A DNA stretch of 26,456 nt from a virus: IMG/VR virus record IMGVR_UViG_3300032116_001143, positions 1 through 26,456 of that record; one strand, written 5' to 3'. A program made the translations under genes and the position numbers. The notes under the pieces are model-generated. The model was given only the letters and a program-made list of their open reading frames with translations, did no database searches and was not told the origin of the DNA. Positions 1,241-11,741 of this stretch are shown here, one piece after another. Within the stretch, counting starts at the first letter, position 1; every line of letters starts with the position of its first letter.

Positions 1241-1250
1241 GGGCATCTCC

Positions 1251-1288
1251 AAAAAGAAAAAGCCCGCACTGGTGTGAACCAGGCGGGC
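1251..1288 (-). terminator. Rho-independent terminator closing the radical SAM/oxygenase unit
   Basis: On the minus strand the sequence forms GCCCGC-CTGG, a six-base loop, CCAG, one unpaired T, then GCGGGC, followed directly by TTTTTCTTTTT. The ten paired bases and the U-tract make a textbook intrinsic terminator. It lies 27 bases after the radical SAM stop codon and its U-tract runs into the Shine-Dalgarno region of the lysis gene at 1240. Lysis genes would therefore need read-through, late antitermination or another promoter. Confidence 0.9.
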
Positions 1289-1315
1289 GATTGATGAAAC
1301 GATTTATTGGCTGGC

Positions 1316-2671
1316 TTAGGCTGCTTGCTGCGCTGCAAGGATCGGAATCACGCGCTTGACTGGCTCCTTGGGAATTCCATGAACCAGACCAAAAATATCC
1401 TTGCGGGATTCACGGAACTCGCCCTCGATGTAGACCGGCTTGCAGCCCGTCATGTACTCCAGGCCAGCCGAAAAGAAGGGGATGTTGTCTGAATAGCTGG
1501 CGTCACAGCCCGCTTCCCACAATGGGCCATGCAAGAACATACAACTGCCTTGGCAAATCTGTAGCACCGGGCAACTGATGCATTCTTTACGTTGGCTCCA
1601 GTGGGTTGAGGTCTTCATCTTCACGCCTGCCAAGTCATCGAGCTTGCCAATCAGGTGACTCTCACCATTTGGGCCAGTCGATGCAGCGCTCACGTTTTGG
1701 CACGTAAGAACATTGCCATGGAGGTCCACTGCCATGTTGTCTGTCTTGTCCATGCCGCACTTCTGACCAAGGGCGCTGGCTGGCCGAGCGGTCCTCACTG
1801 AATCCACAAAGCCCTTGATTTTCTGACGTGCAATATCAAAGTTACCGACCCGGCCGGTGCGCAATTCATCAAAGGCAGTAGCGCGGTAGCCAATCTGCTC
1901 AGCTTGGGTCTTCAGCGTTGCAGCCATGCCGCCCTCGTCGTAAGGGTCGATGAACGCCCCTTCGCCAATCCTCACATCCTCCCCAAAGCGATCTCGTAGC
2001 CAATTCTGCACAGCAGCGCGGCTCGGGTTGTCTTTGTGCATCATGGCGTTGATGCTGATTCGCCCTTGCGGCTGAAGGCGGCCATACAAGTCCATGATGG
2101 CCGCGCGCTTGTCTGGGTCATCCAGCGGGTCAGCGCCGCGCGCGTGATAGCCCGGGCCATCGTGACTGATGCCAACACCGAAGCCCAGATCATCAAGCCA
2201 TTGGTTTTTTTCTTCATCGAGCAAAGAGCCGTTGGTGATGATGTTGAAGTCAGCATCCGGGTACAACACACGCAGCCGTTCGGCCAGAGGTTTGAGCGTT
2301 TTCCAATAGACGAACGGCTCACCGCCCCAGAATTCGATGCGCTGTGGCGCTTGAGTCAGCGCGCCTGTGAGTTGAGCCACAAACGGTTCAATGTCATCGG
2401 GATTGCTGGATTCGGCATGAGGCACAAAGCGCTGTGAGCAGTAGTTGCACTCGTAGTTGCAACTCAGACCCAGGCTGACCTTGAGCGTCTTGATAACGCC
2501 CTTCAGTCCGGGCTGATCCACCGACACCACAGTGGCGTCACCGTACTGACGCGGCTGCACGGGGGCAACGGGTCGACCATCCTCCCAGGTTAGGCTGCTA
2601 GTTTGGTTGTCGTAGAGCAGGACGGGTTCACTGCCATCTGGCGCTTGGGTTTTGATTCGAAACTGTGACAT
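1316..2671 (-). CDS. Radical SAM/SPASM domain protein, putative peptide-modifying enzyme
   Basis: This 451-residue enzyme has the radical SAM CxxxCxxC motif (Cys71, Cys75, Cys78), the WGGEP SAM-binding motif (115-119), and a C-terminal SPASM domain with Cys305, a GNVLTC segment (Cys324), CxxCx5CxxxC (364, 367, 373, 377) and Cys389. This is the full set for two auxiliary iron-sulfur clusters, as in anaerobic sulfatase-maturating enzymes and RiPP thioether synthases. Such enzymes abstract hydrogen from peptide substrates to install formylglycine, thioether or C-C links. The N-terminal 60 residues are extra; a RiPP recognition element there is untested. The ATG at 2671 is chosen over TTG 2683 because it has GAAAG upstream. 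It is the last gene of a compact unit following three oxygenase-like genes, and the Cys-rich tail fibre upstream is the obvious candidate substrate (inference). Confidence 0.88.
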   Translation of the reverse strand: MSQFRIKTQAPDGSEPVLLYDNQTSSLTWEDGRPVAPVQPRQYGDATVVSVDQPGLKGVIKTLKVSLGLSCNYECNYCSQRFVPHAESSNPDDIEPFVAQLTGALTQAPQRIEFWGGEPFVYWKTLKPLAERLRVLYPDADFNIITNGSLLDEEKNQWLDDLGFGVGISHDGPGYHARGADPLDDPDKRAAIMDLYGRLQPQGRISINAMMHKDNPSRAAVQNWLRDRFGEDVRIGEGAFIDPYDEGGMAATLKTQAEQIGYRATAFDELRTGRVGNFDIARQKIKGFVDSVRTARPASALGQKCGMDKTDNMAVDLHGNVLTCQNVSAASTGPNGESHLIGKLDDLAGVKMKTSTHWSQRKECISCPVLQICQGSCMFLHGPLWEAGCDASYSDNIPFFSAGLEYMTGCKPVYIEGEFRESRKDIFGLVHGIPKEPVKRVIPILAAQQAA

Positions 2672-2679
2672 GGTGTCTT

Positions 2680-3345
2680 TCAAAGATTGACGTATAAATC
2701 GCCGTAGTTGTGAGAAGCAACGCGCAGGGTCACCGCCAGCAAGCTGCGATGCCCTGTGCCATCAAAAGGGTTGGTCTCGTGCCAAACCCGCGAGGGATGC
2801 AGCACCGCTAATCCGGGCGTTGTGTAGATGTACTTTGTCTTTTCCCAAAATGGAAATCCAGCCATCGGTCGTGGGTCTTGCAGCACCAATTCGCCATCGC
2901 CCTTTTCTCGAGTAAGCGTGTCTCTAGATGGGCGGTCTTGGCCGCAGTCCAAGTACAGGCACAGCACATGGTCACAGGTGTGGTGGTAGTGAGGCGGGGT
3001 TCGCATCCCTGGTGTGTAGTGGCCAACAATGCAGCGCGCCACAATGTCCAGATCGTCGGCGTTATTGACGCCGTGGGCATCAAGCAAAAACGCCCGGTAG
3101 GTTGTATCCACCCAACGCCTGAACACATGCCATACCTCTGGAGCGCCAACCTCCTGCTCCGCATCAAACAAGTTGTAATGCCCGCGCAACTTTATGCTCG
3201 TGATGTCTGGCAACTTGTTAACTGGAGGGTTGGCTCGTTTGTAGGCTGCTTTCCCAGTTGAGTACGCCAGCAATTCACTTAACTGGTCCGCGTCGAATGG
3301 CGCATCCAGCGTCAGTATGGGCGTTGGCCAGAGGTACTCAATCAT
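2680..3345 (-). CDS. Putative 2OG-Fe(II) oxygenase (third of three)
   Basis: This 221-residue protein has the layout of 2-oxoglutarate/Fe(II) dioxygenases. There is a proximal metal-binding stretch PPHYHHTCDH (residues 117-126, with His119, His121, His122 and Asp125 as candidate ligands), a strand GELVLQDPRP, and a distal His in PSRVWHETNP (His189). Arg200 or Arg208 in the last core strands could bind the 2OG carboxylate. It resembles the double-stranded beta-helix proteins grouped under TIGR02466 more than the prolyl hydroxylases. The substrate is unknown; hydroxylation of a protein side chain is the default guess. The ATG overlaps the stop of the preceding oxygenase as ATGA, and the radical SAM ATG follows eight bases after its stop, so the proteins are probably made together. 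Confidence 0.68.
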   Translation of the reverse strand: MIEYLWPTPILTLDAPFDADQLSELLAYSTGKAAYKRANPPVNKLPDITSIKLRGHYNLFDAEQEVGAPEVWHVFRRWVDTTYRAFLLDAHGVNNADDLDIVARCIVGHYTPGMRTPPHYHHTCDHVLCLYLDCGQDRPSRDTLTREKGDGELVLQDPRPMAGFPFWEKTKYIYTTPGLAVLHPSRVWHETNPFDGTGHRSLLAVTLRVASHNYGDLYVNL

Positions 3346-3920
3346 GGGACGATCTCGCAGCCAAAGGACACTGCAATCCGAAGCTCAGTGCAAAACCTTG
3401 AAATCGGCCGAGCCGCATGGGCTCGCGTGCCGTCAAACACCACCATCCGATTGGGCTTGACCATGGCGCAATGCTCGATTTCGCCATCGTCGCCCATCAC
3501 GATAAAGTCGCCGCCCCAGTCTTTATCCCACTTCAAAACCGGATACCAAACCACCGACCTAGCCCTGCCTGCAAACTCGGCGGGGAAGTCCCTGTGCAAT
3601 GACGCCTCGTCACCAAAGGTCTGTGCGTTGGCCCAGACTCGGGTGAGTTGGGTGTCGCCAAAGAAGCGCTGCTGAACTCGCTTGGTCACTTCAGCCAGGG
3701 GCCCGCCTTGCGACAAAAAGGCAGCAAGGGTCAGACTTGGGTGCCAGACATGACTGTCGTAGTGGTGTTTATTCGTGCCCGGCAGAACGTAGTTTCGGTG
3801 CCAAAAGGCTGCTGGTGATTTTTCATGAGCACGCCATCCAAACGAAAGGGTCTGGTGCTGAAACCAATCCCTTGTGACCTGCATCAGTTCAGGGTCAACC
3901 AAGTTGTCAACAATGTGCAT
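3342..3920 (-). CDS. 2OG-Fe(II) oxygenase, prolyl-4-hydroxylase-like (second of three)
   Basis: This 192-residue protein carries the clearest dioxygenase signature of the three. His109-Arg-Asp111 form the HxD metal motif in ASLHRDFPAEF, a GGDFIVMGDDGE strand pair follows, the distal His168 lies in GTRAHAARPIS, and Arg181 in LRIAVSF is placed to bind 2-oxoglutarate. The size and order match the P4H-like superfamily, which hydroxylates protein or small-molecule substrates with Fe(II), O2 and 2OG. The start ATG at 3920 has AGAAAGA upstream and overlaps the preceding gene by 14 bases. Neighbouring oxygenases and a radical SAM enzyme suggest a shared modification pathway. The substrate cannot be read from the sequence. 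Confidence 0.82.
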   Translation of the reverse strand: MHIVDNLVDPELMQVTRDWFQHQTLSFGWRAHEKSPAAFWHRNYVLPGTNKHHYDSHVWHPSLTLAAFLSQGGPLAEVTKRVQQRFFGDTQLTRVWANAQTFGDEASLHRDFPAEFAGRARSVVWYPVLKWDKDWGGDFIVMGDDGEIEHCAMVKPNRMVVFDGTRAHAARPISRFCTELRIAVSFGCEIVP

Positions 3921-4515
3921 GGTGAATCTTTCTGGACATATCTAACGGGTTCAAACTGATCTCAAAGTGCAGTTCGACAGAAGGTTCTACGCCGTTGTAA
4001 GGGTGGCTGTGATGCGCCAAGTAACTGGGGAAGATCACGAGCGTCCCAGGCTTGGGATGGATCAGTTCCGACCTCCATCCCTCCCAAGGTAGTTTTCTTG
4101 CGCCGTAAGCACCGCTTGGGTTGACCAGCGCTAGCGCGCCAGCGTAGTTCTGCTGGCACCTATTGGGCTGCGGTGTCCCAGCTATCCAATAGATCGCTGA
4201 TAACTCGGTAGCCTCAACATGCAGCGGAATGAACTGACCGGCCTGAACCACCACCTCGCGCGCAGTCAAGGACAAAGGGGTGCAGCCGTATTCATCAACT
4301 ATGAGCCGCCTGACCTCGTCAGACAACGCAAGGAAGATATCGCCCGACTCGGGCGCAGTGAGGATGTTGCTCACTCCATTGCGTGACCAAGGCATCCCGT
4401 CAAGGTTGTAGCGAGCGTGGCTTTCCAGGGCGCACCTTCGCATCGATTCGCGGGTGGCGTTATCCAACGGAAATTCGCCCTGGTAAACCCGAGCTGAAAA
4501 CAGTTCACGGATCAT
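3907..4515 (-). CDS. 2OG-Fe(II) oxygenase-like protein (first of three), possibly degenerate
   Basis: This 202-residue protein looks like a TIGR02466-type 2OG oxygenase fold. It has FIPLHVEATELSAIYWIAG (His99 and Glu101 as candidate proximal ligands), PGTLVIFPSYLAHHSHPYNG with a distal His (168, 169 or 171), and a final core strand VELHFEISLN. Family members normally have an Arg at the start of that last strand to hold 2-oxoglutarate; here the position reads Val-Glu-Leu-His. It may therefore bind metal without normal 2OG chemistry, or serve as a non-catalytic partner. The C-terminus is His/Cys-rich (KIHHAHC). The ATG overlaps the stop of the Ig-domain gene as ATGA. Confidence 0.6.
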   Translation of the reverse strand: MIRELFSARVYQGEFPLDNATRESMRRCALESHARYNLDGMPWSRNGVSNILTAPESGDIFLALSDEVRRLIVDEYGCTPLSLTAREVVVQAGQFIPLHVEATELSAIYWIAGTPQPNRCQQNYAGALALVNPSGAYGARKLPWEGWRSELIHPKPGTLVIFPSYLAHHSHPYNGVEPSVELHFEISLNPLDMSRKIHHAHC

Positions 4516-5318
4516 GTGATGGCCACCTCAGCATCACTCGCGCCGGGGTAGAACTTAAATCCCGCCTTCAGCCGAACCGCATCACCTGCTTGCATCCCCG
4601 TGGTCAACACCGTCGCCACCGCCTTACCGCCTTGACTGGTGCGGCGCGTGACCGGCAAGAAGCCATTGACCGTTTCCAGATACAGATCGGCATCGCGGGT
4701 GATCGGATTGCCCAGGCCGTCGACCATTTGCAAGTTGAAACTGGCGGGCTCTCCGGCTTTGACCGTTGGGGCGACTGCATCAACTCGGACACTTGGAAAT
4801 TCCATTTCGCGGACATAGCCGGAGAATTGGTATGCGGACTCCTCAATATCCTCAATCGGCAGGCCGTCCACTAAACACTCGCAAGCCCCCTGACCTAAGT
4901 TGACGGTGACAAAACATTCATCAAACGTGCTGTTGGCGAATGGAACATTTAAGCCAACTAAAAAGTTGCCATTCCAGACATGCCGCGAGGCATCTGCTGC
5001 CGAGAACCGGGTGGGCATCGTAAACGTGCTCAATGGAACTGGTGAGCGAAACCGACCAGACAGCCAGTCAAACCCAGCAAGGTAAGCTTGACGCTCTGAC
5101 CAATCCCGCCCAGCCCTTAACTCTCGCGCAGAAAAGAGGACGCTATCTTTGTCTACATAGGGACGAAAAGATTCGTCCCCGATCTCGGGGGCTGAGTTAT
5201 GAATGGCGCGCAAAGCCAGACTCGCTTTAACGGTCTCAGCGGCACGATCAACCACGATGTTGATGTTGTAATCACGCGCTCCAGATAGCCCGGCATTTTT
5301 GACAATATAAAGTTTCAT
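4512..5318 (-). CDS. Ig-like domain protein of the tail/modification unit, function unknown
   Basis: I do not recognise the N-terminal part of this 268-residue protein. It begins MKLYIVKNAGLSGARDYN, contains several aromatic-rich strands (VWNGNFLVGLNVPFANSTF) and has three cysteines, two of them close together in QGACECLVDG. Residues about 176-268 look like a bacterial Ig-like (Big_1/invasin-type) domain: a VxAGEPASFNL strand, VDGLGNPI, TVNGF and GGKAVATVLTTG. Such domains decorate phage tails and bind surfaces. The ATG at 5318 lies 11 bases after the Cys-rich fibre stop and has AAGGGG upstream; the longer reading from 5360 would overlap the fibre gene. It is coupled to the oxygenase genes downstream. 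It could be a virion protein, a chaperone of the fibre or a second modification target. Confidence 0.72.
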   Translation of the reverse strand: MKLYIVKNAGLSGARDYNINIVVDRAAETVKASLALRAIHNSAPEIGDESFRPYVDKDSVLFSARELRAGRDWSERQAYLAGFDWLSGRFRSPVPLSTFTMPTRFSAADASRHVWNGNFLVGLNVPFANSTFDECFVTVNLGQGACECLVDGLPIEDIEESAYQFSGYVREMEFPSVRVDAVAPTVKAGEPASFNLQMVDGLGNPITRDADLYLETVNGFLPVTRRTSQGGKAVATVLTTGMQAGDAVRLKAGFKFYPGASDAEVAIT

Positions 5319-5329
5319 GCCTATGCCCC

Positions 5330-6352
5330 TTAGCAGCAGCCGCAGCAGTTGCCACAACAAGCGCAGTTGCAGTTAGTACGGCAGTTGAAGGCTCCACAGT
5401 TGCAGTTGCGGTAATTGCGGCGGTACTCTCCGCCGCCAATTTCATCGGCACTCAGGTAGTAAGCGTCGTAGTTAAAGCTCACTGAAACAGCGTTATTTGC
5501 GTAGGTGGTTCCCCCAGCGCCGTCATAGGAGCCGCTGTTGTGCCAAGCCGTCTGCCCAATAAGCGTGTACCAAGTCCACCAGTTACCGTTAGGGGGAGTC
5601 CAATATGGATTTCCTTGGCAATTCCCATTGGGGACGTAGCCGTTGCAATTGCTGGCCAAGTCGTCGTAGTACTGATTGCTACGGTTCATCTCCCCCAAGT
5701 CTTGACCATCCGACATCTTGTAGCCCGTGTCACGGGCGTTGTCGCCGGGGCGAGAAGACCGAATGTTCGCGCTGTTGGACATGACGAGATTTCCCGTCAT
5801 CGTGTCGCCCGTCTTCGCAACCCGACTTGATAAGTCGATGTTGACCGTCGCATTTCCTGCTGCGTCAGGACCGGCTCCGTTTACTGACCTCACAAACGCG
5901 GCTGAGTCGTAGCCATCCAACTTGTCGGCGTCAGCGGCTTTGGCAGTAATTCCAAGGTACGTTGTGTTGTGATTGTGCGTGGACGAAGCAAATGCACTCG
6001 CATGCTGACCATCGAGAAAGTCAGCATCCAAACCAGTTCCAGCACCATCAACGGTAAGAAGCTTTGCCAAGACATCGGCAGCGGTATAGGAAGCGGCATT
6101 GAGCTTGGCCGCAAACTGGGAATCGATCCCACTGGACAAGTCCAAGATGAAGCGCCAGTTATCGGGGTTGGTTCCGATCAACTGATAGAGCTTCAATTGA
6201 TCTGTGCGGTAGCAAAGCATCCCGACTTGCTGATTTGTAGTCGGAAAAGTTGTGCCGCTATTGCAAGAAATTCCAGTCTTGTCATTATTCAAAATCTCAA
6301 TGAGCGAATCTGAAAGCGAGCGCGACGACGGAATGTCGGTAAAGTTTTGCAT
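5330..6352 (-). CDS. Tail fibre protein with Cys-rich C-terminus
   Basis: The 340-residue product is a phage tail fibre by its central motifs. GLDADFLDGQHASAF (107-121) and the related DADKLDGYDSAAF (141-153) are typical tail-fibre repeats, and AKTGDTMTGNLVMSN (179-193) is the common pre-tip motif. Residues 230-300 are rich in Asn, Gly, Trp and Tyr, including NGNWWTWYT. The last 24 residues hold 11 cysteines (317, 319, 324, 328, 330, 332, 333, 336, 337, 339, 340), mostly as Asn-Cys or Cys-Cys, after an Arg/Asn-rich linker. That tail is unlike ordinary fibre tips and resembles the core of a modified peptide or a metal-binding tail. The ATG follows the previous stop directly (TAA ATG), with AGGGG upstream. 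The oxygenase and radical SAM genes downstream in the same unit are its likely partners (inference). Confidence 0.85.
   Translation of the reverse strand: MQNFTDIPSSRSLSDSLIEILNNDKTGISCNSGTTFPTTNQQVGMLCYRTDQLKLYQLIGTNPDNWRFILDLSSGIDSQFAAKLNAASYTAADVLAKLLTVDGAGTGLDADFLDGQHASAFASSTHNHNTTYLGITAKAADADKLDGYDSAAFVRSVNGAGPDAAGNATVNIDLSSRVAKTGDTMTGNLVMSNSANIRSSRPGDNARDTGYKMSDGQDLGEMNRSNQYYDDLASNCNGYVPNGNCQGNPYWTPPNGNWWTWYTLIGQTAWHNSGSYDGAGGTTYANNAVSVSFNYDAYYLSADEIGGGEYRRNYRNCNCGAFNCRTNCNCACCGNCCGCC
5333..5416 (-). other. Cys-rich C-terminal tail segment of the fibre (putative modified core)
   Basis: This stretch encodes residues 313-340 of the fibre: 11 Cys, 6 Asn, 3 Gly and 3 Arg, with the pattern NCNC, NC, NCNC, ACC, NCC, GCC. 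The DNA is low in complexity, with TGC/TGT and AAC/AAT codons alternating. The even spacing and near-absence of hydrophobic residues argue against an ordinary folded tip. The features fit a substrate for thioether or formylglycine chemistry, or a metal-binding tail; the sequence cannot decide. Confidence 0.5.
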
Positions 6353-7705
6353 TTAGTACCCCTGTGCAATCCAAGTGAAGGAACCGGCAACCCGAGTGCC
6401 GGACGTGTTTTCCAGAACAGCGGTAAAGCCGCCTGTTGTGATGGAGCCAACTAGCCGCGCTATTGCCACGACCGTTCCGCCCTTGTGGGTCATAGTGACT
6501 TCGGGAGGAACCCGAAAGGTGCGTGTGAAAGTGATTGCGACACCAGAAGCTGCGTCGGTAATCTGAGCTGTACCCCGATCAAAGATGTCGGGCACATCCA
6601 CCGTTACCCTCAGGGCATCAATAAAGCCACGGTCTGAATTTCTTGAGTTCAAAATTGCTCTGAATAGAGCGCGTCGGTAGGTGTAGTCACCCTGAATGAA
6701 ATCTCGAAAGTCGGTGTAGCCCGGTGGATGTCCAGACTGAACGATGGCTGCAAAGTCATCTTCAGTGATCTCACCGCTGGCAACAATCATGTCGCTGATA
6801 ACGCCATTGGCATGCCTGCGGTACTGCTCGGCAAGAAGTAACGCCTCTCGAGCGGTCAGCCTCAAAGCTTTTCGCAGTGCCTCAGATACGCCGAAGCCAT
6901 CAGTGAGGTTGCGTCGGTATGCCACAGTCCTGCCTAGGGCCTCGCCAATGGCCACGGCTTCGGCAACTCGCTTGATCGCTTGGCGGGTCACCTTATCGGA
7001 CGTGCCAAAGGATTCAACGAGTGGCTTTCTTACCTGCTTAGCGCCTAAATCGCTGACGCCAAGGCCTTCGCTCACTCGCAAGACAAAAGCAATGAGGTCT
7101 GTGTAGGTTTCAGCAAACGCAATCGCCTCTGCAACCTGCTTTGTGATGACCCGATCCAAGTCGTCGCCTAGTCCAAAGCATTCGGACCTGTTTTTTACGA
7201 TTAGCTTTTGAAGGGATTCAGAGATGGGCATCAATTCAGCTAGGCGCTTTACGCTGTTTTGCCGAAGTGATTCAGACCATGTGACGCTTTCGCCAGTATT
7301 TTTTGTCAGTGCTCGCGTAAGGTAGTCAGCAGCCTGGAATGACTCTGCCGCTTGTTTTTTGTTGCCTTTCGCGACGCCTTCTGCAAAGGCCATCGATTCA
7401 ACCCAGCGCAAAACAAAAGCGATGAGGTCCGAGTAGGTTTCAGAGAACCCAACCGCCTCAGATTCACGCAGGGTGAATATGTTTTTTCGCCCTTCTGAAA
7501 TTGGAAGGCTCTCACTCGAACGCTTTGTCCAGCTTCGCGATCCAGCTTCGATGAAGGCAAGCGTTGCGGCTACAGCAATGCTATAGACCGCAGGATAGGC
7601 TGCTGTCCAGCTTTTCCCTGCGCTGGCACTCGACCATGTGAATCCGGCAGATGCCCAGGTGTAGCGAGATCCCTGGGTTTCAGTAACCGTCACCGTTTCG
7701 GGCAT
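6353..7705 (-). CDS. Tail fibre/tip protein with 18-19-residue repeats and H-type-lectin-like C-terminus
   Basis: This 450-residue protein has three parts. Residues 1-45 are Trp/Ser/Ala-rich. Residues about 45-297 are around fourteen degenerate repeats of 18-19 residues with the core xxE-x-h-x-h-[SAG]-[ED], spaced by basic stretches (for example AEAIAFAETYTD, AELMPISESLQK, AREALLLAEQYR). Residues about 385-450 resemble an H-type lectin fold as used at phage tips: FTRTFRVPPEVTMT, then TTGGFTAVLEN and the ending GSFTWIAQGY. The protein may bind a host surface glycan through the C-terminal domain, with the repeats as a shaft. It lies between a small virion protein and the Cys-rich fibre. The start ATG has only a weak GAG-type ribosome site. 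The lectin call is from the pattern alone. Confidence 0.75.
   Translation of the reverse strand: MPETVTVTETQGSRYTWASAGFTWSSASAGKSWTAAYPAVYSIAVAATLAFIEAGSRSWTKRSSESLPISEGRKNIFTLRESEAVGFSETYSDLIAFVLRWVESMAFAEGVAKGNKKQAAESFQAADYLTRALTKNTGESVTWSESLRQNSVKRLAELMPISESLQKLIVKNRSECFGLGDDLDRVITKQVAEAIAFAETYTDLIAFVLRVSEGLGVSDLGAKQVRKPLVESFGTSDKVTRQAIKRVAEAVAIGEALGRTVAYRRNLTDGFGVSEALRKALRLTAREALLLAEQYRRHANGVISDMIVASGEITEDDFAAIVQSGHPPGYTDFRDFIQGDYTYRRALFRAILNSRNSDRGFIDALRVTVDVPDIFDRGTAQITDAASGVAITFTRTFRVPPEVTMTHKGGTVVAIARLVGSITTGGFTAVLENTSGTRVAGSFTWIAQGY
6815..7573 (-). repeat. Tandem 18-19-residue coding repeat with 330-bp block duplication
   Basis: About fourteen degenerate repeats encode residues 45-297. 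A higher-order unit of six repeats is visible: ETYSDLIAFVLR (89-100) recurs as ETYTDLIAFVLR (199-210) exactly 110 residues later, and ESF (121) recurs at 231. The DNA of the two copies (about 7408-7448 and 7080-7120) is nearly identical, so the block was duplicated more recently than the single repeats diverged. Confidence 0.8.
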
Positions 7706-7710
7706 GACGA

Positions 7711-8157
7711 TCAGCTCATCGTGAAGGTGAAAACGGCGGTCAGGCTGTCATCAGCACCTTTATTGACCACAGGGAACACCACTCGGTCAAACATGATGCC
7801 AGCTGACGCTGCGTTGAATACCCCTGCCTCTGTGATTGCACCGGTCCCATCACCAGCCAGGAAATCAGCTGTGAAAGTAAATGTTTTGGTGCCAGCAGTA
7901 TGGGCGTAGGTCGCAGCGTTGCGATCGAGTTCTGTCACCAGCGCCGACTGTGTTGCTGCGGCTGCGGTAGTCCCTGTGCCAAGGGCAATGAATCCCATCA
8001 CGTTGGGACGACTGACAGACTTTCCAATGGCATCGGCAATAAAGTCGAAGCCCACGTTGACGATGATGTTGTCCTTGTGAACAGTTTCAACCTCGCCGTT
8101 AGAACGGTGCACGATGAGAGTCATCGCGCCATAAAGCTGCATAGATTCTTGGATCAT
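7711..8157 (-). CDS. Small virion/tail-associated protein, function unknown
   Basis: This 148-residue protein resembles small structural proteins found after the tail tip gene in siphophages. It has an N-terminal beta segment (MTLIVHRSNGEVETVHKDN), a VMGFIALGTGTTAAA stretch, then TELDRNAATY and the common ending AITEAGVFNAASAGIMFDR followed by a final FTFTMS strand. Its exact role is not known; it may cap or join tail fibres. The second ATG (8157) is chosen over the first (8169) because GAGGA lies about five bases before it and covers the first ATG. A terminator-like hairpin separates it from the J gene. Confidence 0.72.
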   Translation of the reverse strand: MIQESMQLYGAMTLIVHRSNGEVETVHKDNIIVNVGFDFIADAIGKSVSRPNVMGFIALGTGTTAAAATQSALVTELDRNAATYAHTAGTKTFTFTADFLAGDGTGAITEAGVFNAASAGIMFDRVVFPVVNKGADDSLTAVFTFTMS

Positions 8158-8170
8158 AAAAGTCCTCATT

Positions 8171-8237: not shown

Positions 8238-11200
8238 CTAGTACAAACGCAGGCTTGTAAAGGTGCCGACCGGCGCTATTGCAGCGCTCGCCGAATCGAT
8301 ATCACCACCCATTCGTCCTGCAAAGAGTCGGCGCTCGCTGGCCGTTTGACAAACACCGAGACAAATCCTGTCCGTAATGGATACAGAGAACGCAACACTC
8401 ACTCGCCTTGAGAGTTGGTCCTCCAAGAAAAAGGAGGCATTTGAAGCGTCATATCCCACGAGCAGTTGCCCCGATGAGCCTGTCGCGGCCCAGATGACAC
8501 AAGTTGTAATCTCAGAAGGCGCAAACCAGAATGACGTGTGAAAGACGTCTGGAATGCTCACACTCCAAGCGACTCGGGTCGTGTCCTTGACCATCAGCCC
8601 GTCCCCATAACGACCTGCGGCGTAACTCACGCTTGCTGCTTGGCTTAGCAACGGGTTACCAAGACCGTTAGTGGAACCATTAAGCCTCCAGCCGTAAATT
8701 TCTCCGGCTTGCAGCGCATCTTCACGCGCAATTTGAAACCGCGCATCCACGTTGGCAATTGCACCGTCATATGCCCATTGGCGTTTGGCAGCATCACTTG
8801 CCCAAGGAAAGTTCGCCTCCAGCCATGTTGTACGGTCATCAACCGATGCACCCAAACTGTTGAGCAACGTGTTCTGAGCACGGATGGGTGAGACCAAGTC
8901 CAACTCAAATAGATACTCAGCCATCTGAGCACCAGTGCTCATGCGCAGCACATTGCGGCCATTGACCGAGACGACCGATGCGAAGTGCTTGGTACCAGGA
9001 AACCCTAGAGCCTGCTCATCGCGTGCGAGTATTAGATTTGCGTTTTGGGGTTGGGCCACCACCGTCGAGACAAAGGTCGGCGTGTCGCTGTAAATCCCAG
9101 GTGACGCAATTGCTTTGATCCAAAACTTACGTTCGCCATCAAAACCGGATGGCAGCGTGTAGCTGGTGGATTTGACCTCGGCAACAAATAGCGAAGCGTC
9201 CCAAGCCGCCCCTTCGCGTAACTCATAGCCCACCACCTCTGGCTCAGGGTTAGGTTGCCAGCGAAATTCCAAACGATTGGCCGATTGCACAACATCGAAC
9301 TGCCGAACCGTACTCGGAGCAAGTAAATTCAGAACAAAGGTTGTTACGTGCGCGCTGTAATTTCCAGAGGTATCAATCGCACGAATGTGATACGGGTACT
9401 GACCTGCTGCACTTTGATCATGCAACATCTGAGTACCTGACGTCTTGGCCACAAGTTGAGCATCATCCCAACCTGGCCCCACACGCACCTCGTATCCTGA
9501 GAGGTCAGCATCTTGCAGTTCATCCCAAGCAATCATCAAGTCTGAAACTCTGCGCTGGACCGTAAATCCAGTGACGTCCGATGGCGGCAACGTCTTACCC
9601 AGCACTACCCCGCTGAGCGTTGCGGGAATGCTCTCCTTACGGGTGATGCCAATGGCTCTCAGACTGAACTCGTACTGCCCCTCTTGGGCGTCACGAATTT
9701 CAGCGTAGTTTGCGCTGGTCAGTGGCAGGCTTACGAAGTTTCCGCCTGCGACCCGATAAGACAGGCGGTAGGCAATGGCAGTTTGAACCTCGGTCCATGA
9801 GACCTGAACCAAGACTTGAGCCTGGTCTTTCACCCTATAAAGACTCTCTTGCATTGCCAACCCCGTAGGCGGTGGAGGAATGTCCGAAAGAACAGTAATC
9901 GAGCGTGGCTGAAGTGCCAGACCTTCTTCAATCGCTGCGTATTTGCTTGGGTTGTGCGCCAGTGCCGTTACTTCATGGACACCCGGATCACGCTCAGCGA
10001 CAGACACCACCCTAAAAAGCTGCGGCTCAATGATTGAGGATGCCAACATCCAAATTGCATCAACTTGGGGGACCGAACTGAACGGTATCGTCACTGTCAA
10101 AGTGCGACCGGATACAGGCCCCACCAGTCGCTCCTCGACAGTTCCATTCGGCAAAACGACCGAGAGTCGCCAAGGTAAATCAGCTGGCAACTCTTGGTCG
10201 AGCGTGACAGTGCTAGCCGTTGCAGCGGCGGTCCGACCACCCAAGCGCATACCGCCGCGAACAGGATCAGCGACCTTGATGACGTCGCCTGGACGCACCA
10301 CTGCACCTTCAAGGCCCGTTCGGAAAGTGACAATTTCTGACTCAGATTGCTCGGAGAACAAAAGCCACTTGCCCACCCGGTGGGCTTGACCTCGAGCAGT
10401 GCAACCGAGTGCAACTACATCGCTTTGCACAATCCCATAACGGGCGATACCTGCGGCATCTTCGACATATTCAACCTTCTGACGGTAGAAATCATCTGGA
10501 TCATTCCAGGTCACGAGCGCCACGGTGTGACGAGCTTTAGCTGAAGACCCTTGGTAGGCAAACTCACCGTCCACCACGTTGCCGGGGGCGAACTGGTAAA
10601 CCGCATCACTGGGTGCGTCCTGCGTGACAGTGATTGCTCCACCCGACCAATACACCATGCCTCGAAAAATCGAGGCCATGTCCTGCACGACCTTGTAAGC
10701 CTGCTCGCGCGTCTGAAGATACAAGTTACAGGTAAAGCGTGGCTCAAAGCCCCCAAGCCCGTTAGGAACCAACTGGTCACAGTACTGCGCTACTCGGTAA
10801 AGCGCCCATTTGTCGACCTGTGACTCAGGGATGTATCCACCCAAGCCGTACCGGGTACTGGTGACCAGGTCATAAAAACACCACGCAGGGTTGTCTGTCC
10901 ATGCGATTTTGAAGTTTCCGTTCCACACGCCACTGTAGGTTCGTGTACCAGGGTCATAGTTCACCGGCACACGGACACGCAGCAGTTTCATGTCGTAGCT
11001 GCGCCGAGGGATGGCCGAAAACTGCGAAGCATCTACCCTCAACGCAACCAAGGCGCTGTTGGGATAGCGCAGCTTGCTCTCAACAACTTCGGTGTAGGAG
11101 TCGAGGTAGGTCTTGTTCTGGATGGCGCTGGAGGTTGAATCCGCCGTGACACGCCGAACACGAATTTCCCACGGGCCGTTACCGGTTAGCGGCACGTAGT

Positions 11201-11741
11201 AACTGCGCTGGTACTTGGTCGTGGTCTTACCTGAGATCGTGTCGTTTATTACTTCGACAAACCCGCCGCCGCTGACCTGCCGATCGATGGAAAACGATAC
11301 AGCGCTTCCGTTCAGATCTCCATTGGTCGTGTCTTGGTTGGTCAGTTGCCCAACGCTCACCTTAATCCTGACTGCGTCTACATCAGGATCAGTGATTGAG
11401 CGAACCACAGGCTGGCTCGCCTTGATCTCAACGCCAACGGGTACCTCGTTTTCGACAGAAGAGAACCCAGGTACGTAGCTTTGCTGCTGTGTGCCATCTC
11501 TGGTCTCAAGCGTTACGCCAGAAAAATTGGTTGTACCGTCGGCGTTCTGTATGGGCGTGTCGTCCAGATATACCGATTGGAGCCCATCGACCAAGCCCTC
11601 AATCTCTCCCTCGGAAATGAGATCAACAACCCGTGCATAGGCTTTGGAGCGTAAGCTGTCAGGCGCTTCTTGGGCTACGCGTGCGCTAGCACCTCCGCCC
11701 CCTTTGCCACCACCTCCTGCGCCGATGATTAGTTCAGTCAT
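8238..11741 (-). CDS. J: Tail tip/host specificity protein J homologue
   Basis: This 1167-residue protein matches lambda J through its first ~600 residues, with long shared stretches such as ISEGEIEGLVDGLQSV, RTYSGVWNGNFKIAW, DKWALYRVAQYCDQLVPNG and ARYGIVQSDVVALGCTARGQ. It forms the central tail tip hub. Three fibronectin type III-like domains follow (about 620-715, 719-805 and 808-894), each with a Trp-containing core and a Y-E/YRL-type strand. Residues about 1042-1167 look like a concanavalin/LamG-type domain (GRYGDGLMVKD, then FHTSFWFAP, ATGSSGQLLVGY) and replace the lambda receptor-binding end. The N-terminus is Gly-rich. The ATG overlaps the stop of the I homologue as ATGA. Host range should depend on this C-terminus together with the fibres. 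Confidence 0.93.
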   Translation of the reverse strand: MTELIIGAGGGGKGGGGASARVAQEAPDSLRSKAYARVVDLISEGEIEGLVDGLQSVYLDDTPIQNADGTTNFSGVTLETRDGTQQQSYVPGFSSVENEVPVGVEIKASQPVVRSITDPDVDAVRIKVSVGQLTNQDTTNGDLNGSAVSFSIDRQVSGGGFVEVINDTISGKTTTKYQRSYYVPLTGNGPWEIRVRRVTADSTSSAIQNKTYLDSYTEVVESKLRYPNSALVALRVDASQFSAIPRRSYDMKLLRVRVPVNYDPGTRTYSGVWNGNFKIAWTDNPAWCFYDLVTSTRYGLGGYIPESQVDKWALYRVAQYCDQLVPNGLGGFEPRFTCNLYLQTREQAYKVVQDMASIFRGMVYWSGGAITVTQDAPSDAVYQFAPGNVVDGEFAYQGSSAKARHTVALVTWNDPDDFYRQKVEYVEDAAGIARYGIVQSDVVALGCTARGQAHRVGKWLLFSEQSESEIVTFRTGLEGAVVRPGDVIKVADPVRGGMRLGGRTAAATASTVTLDQELPADLPWRLSVVLPNGTVEERLVGPVSGRTLTVTIPFSSVPQVDAIWMLASSIIEPQLFRVVSVAERDPGVHEVTALAHNPSKYAAIEEGLALQPRSITVLSDIPPPPTGLAMQESLYRVKDQAQVLVQVSWTEVQTAIAYRLSYRVAGGNFVSLPLTSANYAEIRDAQEGQYEFSLRAIGITRKESIPATLSGVVLGKTLPPSDVTGFTVQRRVSDLMIAWDELQDADLSGYEVRVGPGWDDAQLVAKTSGTQMLHDQSAAGQYPYHIRAIDTSGNYSAHVTTFVLNLLAPSTVRQFDVVQSANRLEFRWQPNPEPEVVGYELREGAAWDASLFVAEVKSTSYTLPSGFDGERKFWIKAIASPGIYSDTPTFVSTVVAQPQNANLILARDEQALGFPGTKHFASVVSVNGRNVLRMSTGAQMAEYLFELDLVSPIRAQNTLLNSLGASVDDRTTWLEANFPWASDAAKRQWAYDGAIANVDARFQIAREDALQAGEIYGWRLNGSTNGLGNPLLSQAASVSYAAGRYGDGLMVKDTTRVAWSVSIPDVFHTSFWFAPSEITTCVIWAATGSSGQLLVGYDASNASFFLEDQLSRRVSVAFSVSITDRICLGVCQTASERRLFAGRMGGDIDSASAAIAPVGTFTSLRLY

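Follow-up and report, generated by a model that had tools for sequence, protein, structure and literature searches.

Cys-tailed fibre and SPASM enzyme genes in the window

The window analysed here is the whole of a 26,456-base IMG/VR virus record (positions are 1-based over the entire stretch). Reading of its open reading frames (ORFs) showed that the minus strand encodes a tail region resembling that of siphophages. This region carries a tail fibre gene with a Cys-rich end, followed by genes for an immunoglobulin (Ig)-like protein, three 2-oxoglutarate (2OG)-Fe(II) oxygenases (OG1, OG2, and OG3), and a SPASM radical S-adenosylmethionine (SAM) enzyme, and a terminator. The fibre tail and this enzyme are the subject of the present study. 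The unit had been described in an initial annotation of the DNA and was confirmed from the sequence. Its features are as follows.

5330..6352, minus strand: tail fibre, 340 residues, proposed substrate (PHROG tail fibre match, JWF fibre match)
5330..5407, minus strand: Cys-rich C-terminal tail (NCNCGAFNCRTNCNCACCGNCCGCC-stop), last 25 residues of the fibre, proposed modified tip
4512..5318, minus strand: Ig-like companion protein, 268 residues (AlphaFold2 model, PDB Ig-like matches)
3907..4515, minus strand: OG3, 2OG-Fe(II) oxygenase (PF13759)
3342..3920, minus strand: OG2, 2OG-Fe(II) oxygenase of a family other than that of OG1 and OG3 (PF13640)
2680..3345, minus strand: OG1, 2OG-Fe(II) oxygenase of the same family as OG3 (PF13759, PHROG 81)
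1316..2671, minus strand: SPASM radical SAM enzyme (PHROG 1802), proposed fibre-tip maturase (PF04055, TIGR04085, PHROG 1802)
1248..1292, minus strand: Rho-independent terminator of the unit (fold energy and U run)

The fibre stop codon is separated from the Ig start by a gap of 11 nt. The Ig gene and OG3 have 4 nt in common, as do OG2 and OG1, and OG3 and OG2 overlap by 14 nt. The radical SAM gene likely starts at the ATG at 2671; the listed ORF starts at a TTG at 2683. The terminator has a folding energy of -20.9 kcal/mol (z -4.36) with a U run at its end, and was absent from the pattern-scan listing although the fold and the U run support it.

The fibre contains 15 Cys in 340 residues, and 11 of these fall within the last 24 residues. 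Over residues 79-131 it matches a PHROG tail fibre family (E 2.5e-10), and over residues 1-208 it is similar to the Achromobacter phage JWF fibre (34%, E 2e-15).

The enzyme scored above the cut-offs of PF04055 (32.1 vs 29.5 bits) and of the SPASM domain model TIGR04085 (33 vs 27 bits), and matched PHROG 1802 with an E value of 1e-58. This family is named just 'radical SAM domain-containing protein' and belongs to the PHROGs class 'other'. In an alignment of 36 sequences, the CxxxCxxC motif (C69, C73, and C76, alignment numbering) and the seven SPASM Cys (C303, C322, C362, C365, C371, C375, and C387) were invariant. The mean column identity was 60% for the enzyme vs 20% for the Ig partner. Among the 25 of 44 NCBIfam matches listed, the SPASM domain model was the only one above its cut-off, and 24 enzyme families were below theirs (ca. 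52 bits or less vs 170-600), including the PapB ranthipeptide family NF047865 (50.9 vs 340 bits), so that membership of this family was not supported. The AlphaFold2 model of the enzyme (pLDDT 90) matched CteB (Z 24.0), ChlB with its precursor (20.7), anSMEcpe (19.8), and TigE (18.6). All four act on peptides or proteins. The predicted fold is thus nearest to peptide-modifying SPASM enzymes.

Linkage of the Cys tail and the enzyme

To avoid circularity, the viral collection (IMG/VR) was searched for NCNCNC-stop DNA alone, without the enzyme as bait, which gave at least 120 stretches. In 66 of the 120 listed stretches (45 of the first 80 and 21 of the other 40), the motif closed an ORF of at least 80 residues, and these were taken as the true set. 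The remaining 54, in which the ORF was shorter (L133, at 60 residues, among them), served as the control for chance matches. PHROG 1802 was found (E < 1e-45) on 49 of the 66 contigs (33/45 and 16/21) vs 1 of the 54 control contigs, where it lay 58 kb off the motif, or 2 of 54 when one match with E 8e-4 was counted. The difference between 49/66 and 1/54 had a p value of 1e-17 (Fisher's exact test). These counts bear out the co-occurrence of Cys-rich fibre ends with the radical SAM gene that the initial annotation had anticipated.

The 17 enzyme-less contigs carried nine fibre-like and eight non-fibre proteins (fibre vs non-fibre, and phage vs non-phage setting, were judged by eye throughout). 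In the nine fibre-like cases, the contig ended 72-1,420 bases past the tail, before the enzyme start expected from the spacing in the nearest tail types. In L142, with 1,041 bases past the tail, there was room for at most the first ~70 bases of the enzyme. Cys-ended fibres in phages lacking the enzymes had been named at the outset as evidence that would speak against a functional link, and zero fibre-type cases of this kind were found where the contig ran far enough.

With the radical SAM enzyme as bait, viral contigs yielded 273 relatives, and 80 loci were retained. Bacterial and archaeal genomes contributed a further 77 loci, and the enzyme loci from all searches numbered 193. These formed 76 clusters at 70% identity; 69 clusters with at least 2.3 kb upstream were used, and 7 were excluded. 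A CxCxC-tailed protein was present near the enzyme in 61/69 clusters (59 by script; L268 and L304 by eye), and the same script applied to the opposite strand of the same loci gave 0/69. Ten of the 69 cluster representatives stem from the motif search and are thus tailed by construction; without the motif-derived representatives, the counts were 51/59 overall and 34/35 at ≥44.5% identity. By identity to the window's enzyme, the tail was present in 44/45 (≥44.5%), 10/11 (40-44.5%), and 7/13 (<40%) clusters. The tails of L013, L038, L054, and L268 were recovered by frame scans.

A tailed protein (e.g., with a NCNCNCNC end) was found upstream of nearly all loci with sufficient upstream sequence. 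The distance between tail and enzyme was mostly 0.7-3.3 kb, in some loci <0.3 kb, and in a few 5-6 kb. The usual gene order was fibre(s), Ig-like protein, zero to three oxygenases, and radical SAM enzyme, with the Ig gene after the enzyme in some phages. Because the unit recurs in many other phages, chance is excluded as the origin of the Cys-tail/enzyme unit. The linkage seen from both sides strongly supports, by comparative genomics, the earlier suggestion that the enzymes act on the C-terminus of the fibre.

Tails of the window type recur in L237, L251, L002, L004, L029, L045, and other loci. Tail statistics were based on 64 distinct tails, taken only from loci not picked by the NCNCNC motif. 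In the terminal (xC)n run, x was Asn in 72.5%, Ala in 10%, and Asp in 8%; by comparison, the fibre bodies contained 8.1% Asn and 0.6% Cys. The run ended exactly at the stop codon in 51/64 tails. When the motif-chosen loci were included, Asn reached 77% and the run ended at the stop in 71/84 tails. Both Asn codons and both Cys codons occur in the tails; therefore, selection acts on the protein, and a DNA-level repeat as the cause of the tail was ruled out. In BLAST clustering, 80/84 fibre bodies fell into one component, and therefore we make no claim that unrelated fibres gained the tail. The proposed partner proteins range from ~90 to 900 residues and are mostly fibre-like. In L035, L042, L046, L047, L049, L050, and L055, three tandem proteins of ~90-170 residues, each NC-tailed, replace the single fibre.

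Bacterial carriers of the enzyme include Limnohabitans, Burkholderia paludis, Polynucleobacter, Magnetospirillum, Paraburkholderia, and Rhodoplanes, and are taken to be prophages. Plasmids gave no enzyme match at E 1e-20. A contig binned as a Klebsiella pneumoniae metagenome-assembled genome (L300) contains a segment with 94% identity to the window's enzyme and is probably a misbinned phage contig. In L207 (record G005), eight radical SAM matches within 34 kb surround one NC-tailed protein.

Companion genes, Hint-like domains, and distant relatives

OG3 matched PF13759 (32.9 bits vs cut-off 27, E 8.9e-8) and OG2 matched PF13640 (32.7 bits vs cut-off 27, E 1.5e-7). OG1 matched PF13759 at 25.7 bits (E 1.5e-5), slightly under the cut-off of 27, and PHROG 81 at E 4.7e-12. 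OG2 also distantly resembles FlmC (NF052475; 49.4 bits vs cut-off 240). Two His, candidate ligands of the iron-binding HxD/E...H motif, were invariant across 47 OG1/OG3 sequences. An oxygenase was counted in at least 25/69 enzyme clusters; this count and that of the Ig-like protein are lower bounds, since the simple gene caller missed some genes. On a tree of 65 enzymes, from which 11 of the 76 clusters were omitted (<380 residues or <2.3 kb upstream), the oxygenase label changed 13 times. Therefore, oxygenases are gained and lost, whereas tail and enzyme mostly persist as a pair. The initial annotation had treated the oxygenases and the radical SAM enzyme as one set. The pairing of the radical SAM enzyme with the tail stood, but the oxygenases proved optional, and therefore the core pair is the tail and the radical SAM enzyme.

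Two tail features were compared with the presence of 2OG genes after the fact. Adjacent Cys (CC) occurred in 12/24 tails with 2OG vs 1/35 without (p 2e-5, a post hoc test that ignores kinship). Having three oxygenases as well as CC pairs, the window agrees with a possible action of the oxygenases on the tail that the radical SAM enzyme is proposed to modify.

The Ig-like protein gave a beta-rich AlphaFold2 model (mean pLDDT 92), and its best PDB fold matches were Ig-like adhesin domains (E 1e-4, query TM-scores of ~0.3). Its family, aligned over 35 sequences (alignment A1), had zero PDB sequence matches under E 0.1. The protein was found in at least 41/69 clusters, usually between the fibre and the enzyme. 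Neither OG1 (E 1e-3) nor the Ig protein (E 1e-2) had a tblastn match among 50,697 phage records.

A Hint-like domain directly continues the tail at eleven loci, e.g., NCNCDCNCNCS-CFPAGTMVLMADG. Among these loci are Achromobacter phages JWF and 2-1 and, on the bacterial side, contigs such as that of B. paludis MSh1. The JWF domain matched Pfam Hom_end_hint (PF05203, 47.5 vs 32.1 bits) and starts at residue 308, the Cys of CFPAGT after the NC tail. In L264 and L311, PF05203 was below the cut-off, and the remaining eight loci were assigned from sequence alone. Hint domains cleave at their first Cys. Such cleavage would leave the tail as the C-terminus again. Hint or intein-like domains are known in phage proteins as self-processing domains that end a phage tail protein; those described here differ in lying directly after a CxCxC tail, together with a radical SAM gene. 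In Rhodospirillales (L292:5371-6600, L297:5035-6600, and L279:6032-7051), long CxC runs of about ten units continue into a Hint-like domain. A 317-residue protein of Providencia phage PSTNGR1 matches the Hint part of JWF without a CxCxC tail, and the 57 phage records that matched the enzyme do not include PSTNGR1.

JWF and 2-1 carry a homologous PHROG 1802 enzyme (47-49% identity) as the second gene after an NC-tailed fibre. They differ from the window in having the Hint domain after the tail and in that no 2OG gene was recognised. Their gene between the fibre and the enzyme showed no kinship to the Ig protein by profile comparison (JWF gp029 and two relatives vs the Ig family, probability 0.3%). 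With a marine-type enzyme as a second query, only JWF and 2-1 matched at E 1e-15.

Distant tail-less relatives of the enzyme sit in settings like peptide natural-product clusters, apparently outside phages. In Variovorax (L299:5391-9299), a YcaO-nitroreductase protein (PF02624, E 1e-41) accompanies a 69-residue peptide directly upstream of the enzyme, and this chromosomal cluster looks like a cluster for ribosomally synthesised and post-translationally modified peptides (RiPPs). The 69-residue peptide is conserved in L308; L301 and L308 are similar to L299 by eye, and L290, L298, L303, and L308 share its gene order by eye, the Pfam run covering L299. The relative in L275 adjoins a C39-peptidase ATP-binding cassette (ABC) exporter, and that in L289 adjoins an ABC exporter. 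In Parasutterella (L306:12843-16002), a fibre ending in NCNCDCRCDCDC is followed by a divergent SPASM enzyme (PHROG 1802, E 4e-24). Also at this locus are a protein with an end similar, by eye, to that of the Ig family and a second SPASM enzyme at 8001.

The genes flanking the unit in the window are, from the ORF reading, as follows.

8238-11741, minus strand: J-like protein
7711-8169 and 6353-7705, minus strand: two further genes between the J-like protein and the fibre

The gene at 6353-7705 encodes a 450-residue protein with many degenerate repeats (SES/GESL-type), and its C-terminus has a weak H-type lectin match (PF09458, E 5e-4, below the cut-off). On the 3' side of the radical SAM gene are small genes, one of them PHROG 6637, followed by a lysozyme-like gene where the contig ends. 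The cassette sits between tail tip genes and probable lysis genes.

Interpretation as a probable fibre-tip maturation cassette

From the linkage of tail and enzyme, it is likely that the unit is a fibre-tip maturation cassette in which the radical SAM enzyme modifies the Cys tail of the fibre. We infer that the tail is the substrate of the enzyme. The N-terminus of the fibre would attach to the virion, and the Asn/Asp/Ala-Cys tail would form the distal tip. The SPASM enzyme would modify Cys and/or Asn of the tail post-translationally, as RiPP maturases do with precursor peptides. Thioether bonds from the tail Cys to neighbouring residues might then give a rigid, oxidation-proof cap; this chemistry is a tentative guess, made because the enzyme fold and the Cys-rich substrate point there. 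The 2OG oxygenases, in about a third of cassettes, may add an optional oxidation such as hydroxylation, and the Ig-like protein probably assists the tip structurally or in its delivery. Where a Hint domain follows the tail, as in several phages and prophages, its self-cleavage would expose the tail as a new C-terminus. As for the benefit to the phage, our guess is a hard, reduction-proof, or sticky tip that serves stability or adhesion.

Several observations weigh against this interpretation or narrow it. The evidence for tail modification is genomic throughout, and the thioether guess is drawn solely from the fold. Eight NCNCNC-ending non-fibre proteins (L097, L156, L177, L145, L100, L138, L164, and L188) had no PHROG 1802 on their contigs; therefore, an NCNCNC end does not always need this enzyme. 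Several of the 49 positive contigs are near-copies of one phage, which makes the effective number smaller; at 80% identity, the 116 enzyme loci gathered before the bacterial and archaeal scan fell into 60 clusters. In L059, which has both enzyme and Ig protein, the 3.6 kb upstream yielded no Cys-tailed protein. The other tail-less clusters (L275, L289, L290, L291, L298, L303, and L308) are distant relatives, and in L306, counted among the 61, the tail is found 6 kb on the downstream side, next to another SPASM enzyme. A RiPP recognition element (PqqD-like leader-binding domain) was not recognised in the enzyme (Pfam at E 1; the CteB alignment starts at residue 1). With respect to the oxygenases, Asp in the tail was not associated with 2OG presence (p 1.0, likewise post hoc and ignoring kinship), and the limits of the CC test apply to that association as well. 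As in RiPP systems, a modifying enzyme is tied to its proposed substrate, the tie being genetic; instead of a short precursor with a cleaved leader, however, the substrate would be a 340-residue fibre with the tail at its C-terminus. Separately, one group of the non-fibre NCNCNC proteins is rich in further Cys.

Other explanations were weighed against the maturation cassette. His rings bind iron in the tip of the T4 long fibre. In a similar way, the tail could be an unmodified metal-binding or disulphide-bonded cap with Cys rings from three chains, the enzymes serving another purpose; the regular alternation of Cys would fit a beta-strand with one Cys face, and the non-fibre proteins without the enzyme agree with it. 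However, this explanation does not account for why fibre-type tails and the enzyme are linked almost one to one, and metal binding does not require the strong preference for Asn at x, which makes it quite unlikely. A somewhat better, though still small, chance is given to the possibility that the enzyme epimerises, hydroxylates, or otherwise alters the Asn/Ala/Asp between the Cys (e.g., D-residues at every second position), the Cys just holding the product. The radical SAM epimerase EpeE also matches the enzyme model (Z 13) and Asn is strongly preferred at x, but EpeE ranks well below CteB and ChlB, and Cys, not x, is the constant element of the tail.

The enzyme might instead turn tail Cys into formylglycine, as anaerobic sulfatase maturases (anSMEs) do, so that aldehydes would bind host amines covalently. 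The window's enzyme shares with anSMEs the SPASM fold and the proposed action on Cys in proteins, anSMEcpe is among its best fold and sequence matches (sequence match E 1e-9), and one JWF record annotates the enzyme gene as sulfatase-maturating. In contrast, the score for the anSME family TIGR03942 was far under the cut-off (40.5 vs 349.45 bits), which does not support membership. In addition, the residue following the GxxxxC Cys was Gln (CQN) in all 36 aligned sequences, where the profile alignment gives CDF for anSMEcpe, whose Asp at this position is the catalytic Asp277. Formylglycine formation was set aside on this score and residue, and we consider it improbable. The remaining explanation is that the genes form a moron or auxiliary metabolic island directed at host molecules and stand beside the fibre by chance. 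Radical SAM and 2OG genes appear among the phage auxiliary metabolic genes listed in a marine virome study (PMC7150976), and the 2OG genes are optional here. On the other hand, phages and prophages generally retain the gene order fibre-Ig-(2OG)-radical SAM, and the Parasutterella locus again combines a tail, an Ig-like protein, and a SPASM enzyme. Such a host-directed role is made very unlikely by the tail-enzyme linkage and was set aside.

The maturation cassette proposed here resembles the SPASM maturases of Cys-rich RiPP precursors (CteB/SCIFF, PapB ranthipeptides, and TIGR04463) in its fold (CteB being the closest), its 7-Cys SPASM domain, and the position of the enzyme gene next to that of a substrate with a Cys-rich C-terminus. 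It differs from them in the large, mostly fibre-like partner, the xC-repeat tail, the location in a phage tail operon, and scores below the family cut-offs among the NCBIfam matches listed. In the literature, covered as titles and the starts of abstracts, with most subscription papers outside reach, we found no report linking radical SAM enzymes to phage fibre tails. Among individual papers, one phage cluster is described with a radical SAM protein (PMC10783043), 'radical SAM' is absent from PMC11118758, where the 'tail' passages concern other than phage tails, and the term 'radical' or 'radical SAM' is absent from two papers on JWF relatives (PMC9959647 and PMC10457797). SPASM precursor-enzyme pairs are already known; the virion fibre as proposed partner, the optional oxygenases, and the presumed Hint release are new.

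On balance, we lean towards a widespread and so far unnoticed virion modification, in which Asn-Cys fibre tips would be cross-linked by a dedicated SPASM radical SAM enzyme into a RiPP-like host-contacting end, in some cases with 2OG tailoring or Hint release, in phages and prophages of Comamonadaceae, Burkholderiaceae, Rhodospirillaceae, and many unassigned hosts. To our knowledge, such radical chemistry has until now been known from peptide natural products and from cofactor or sulfatase maturation. If the interpretation is true, phages build part of their adhesion apparatus by radical chemistry, and PHROG 1802, a phage radical SAM family filed as 'other', gains a function. Dozens of natural enzyme-substrate pairs would also become available for exploring new peptide chemistry, along with a route to very robust binding tips, and the system would show how a self-cleaving Hint domain presents a modified C-terminus. 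With its product in hand, the present variant could turn out to be a kind of its own.

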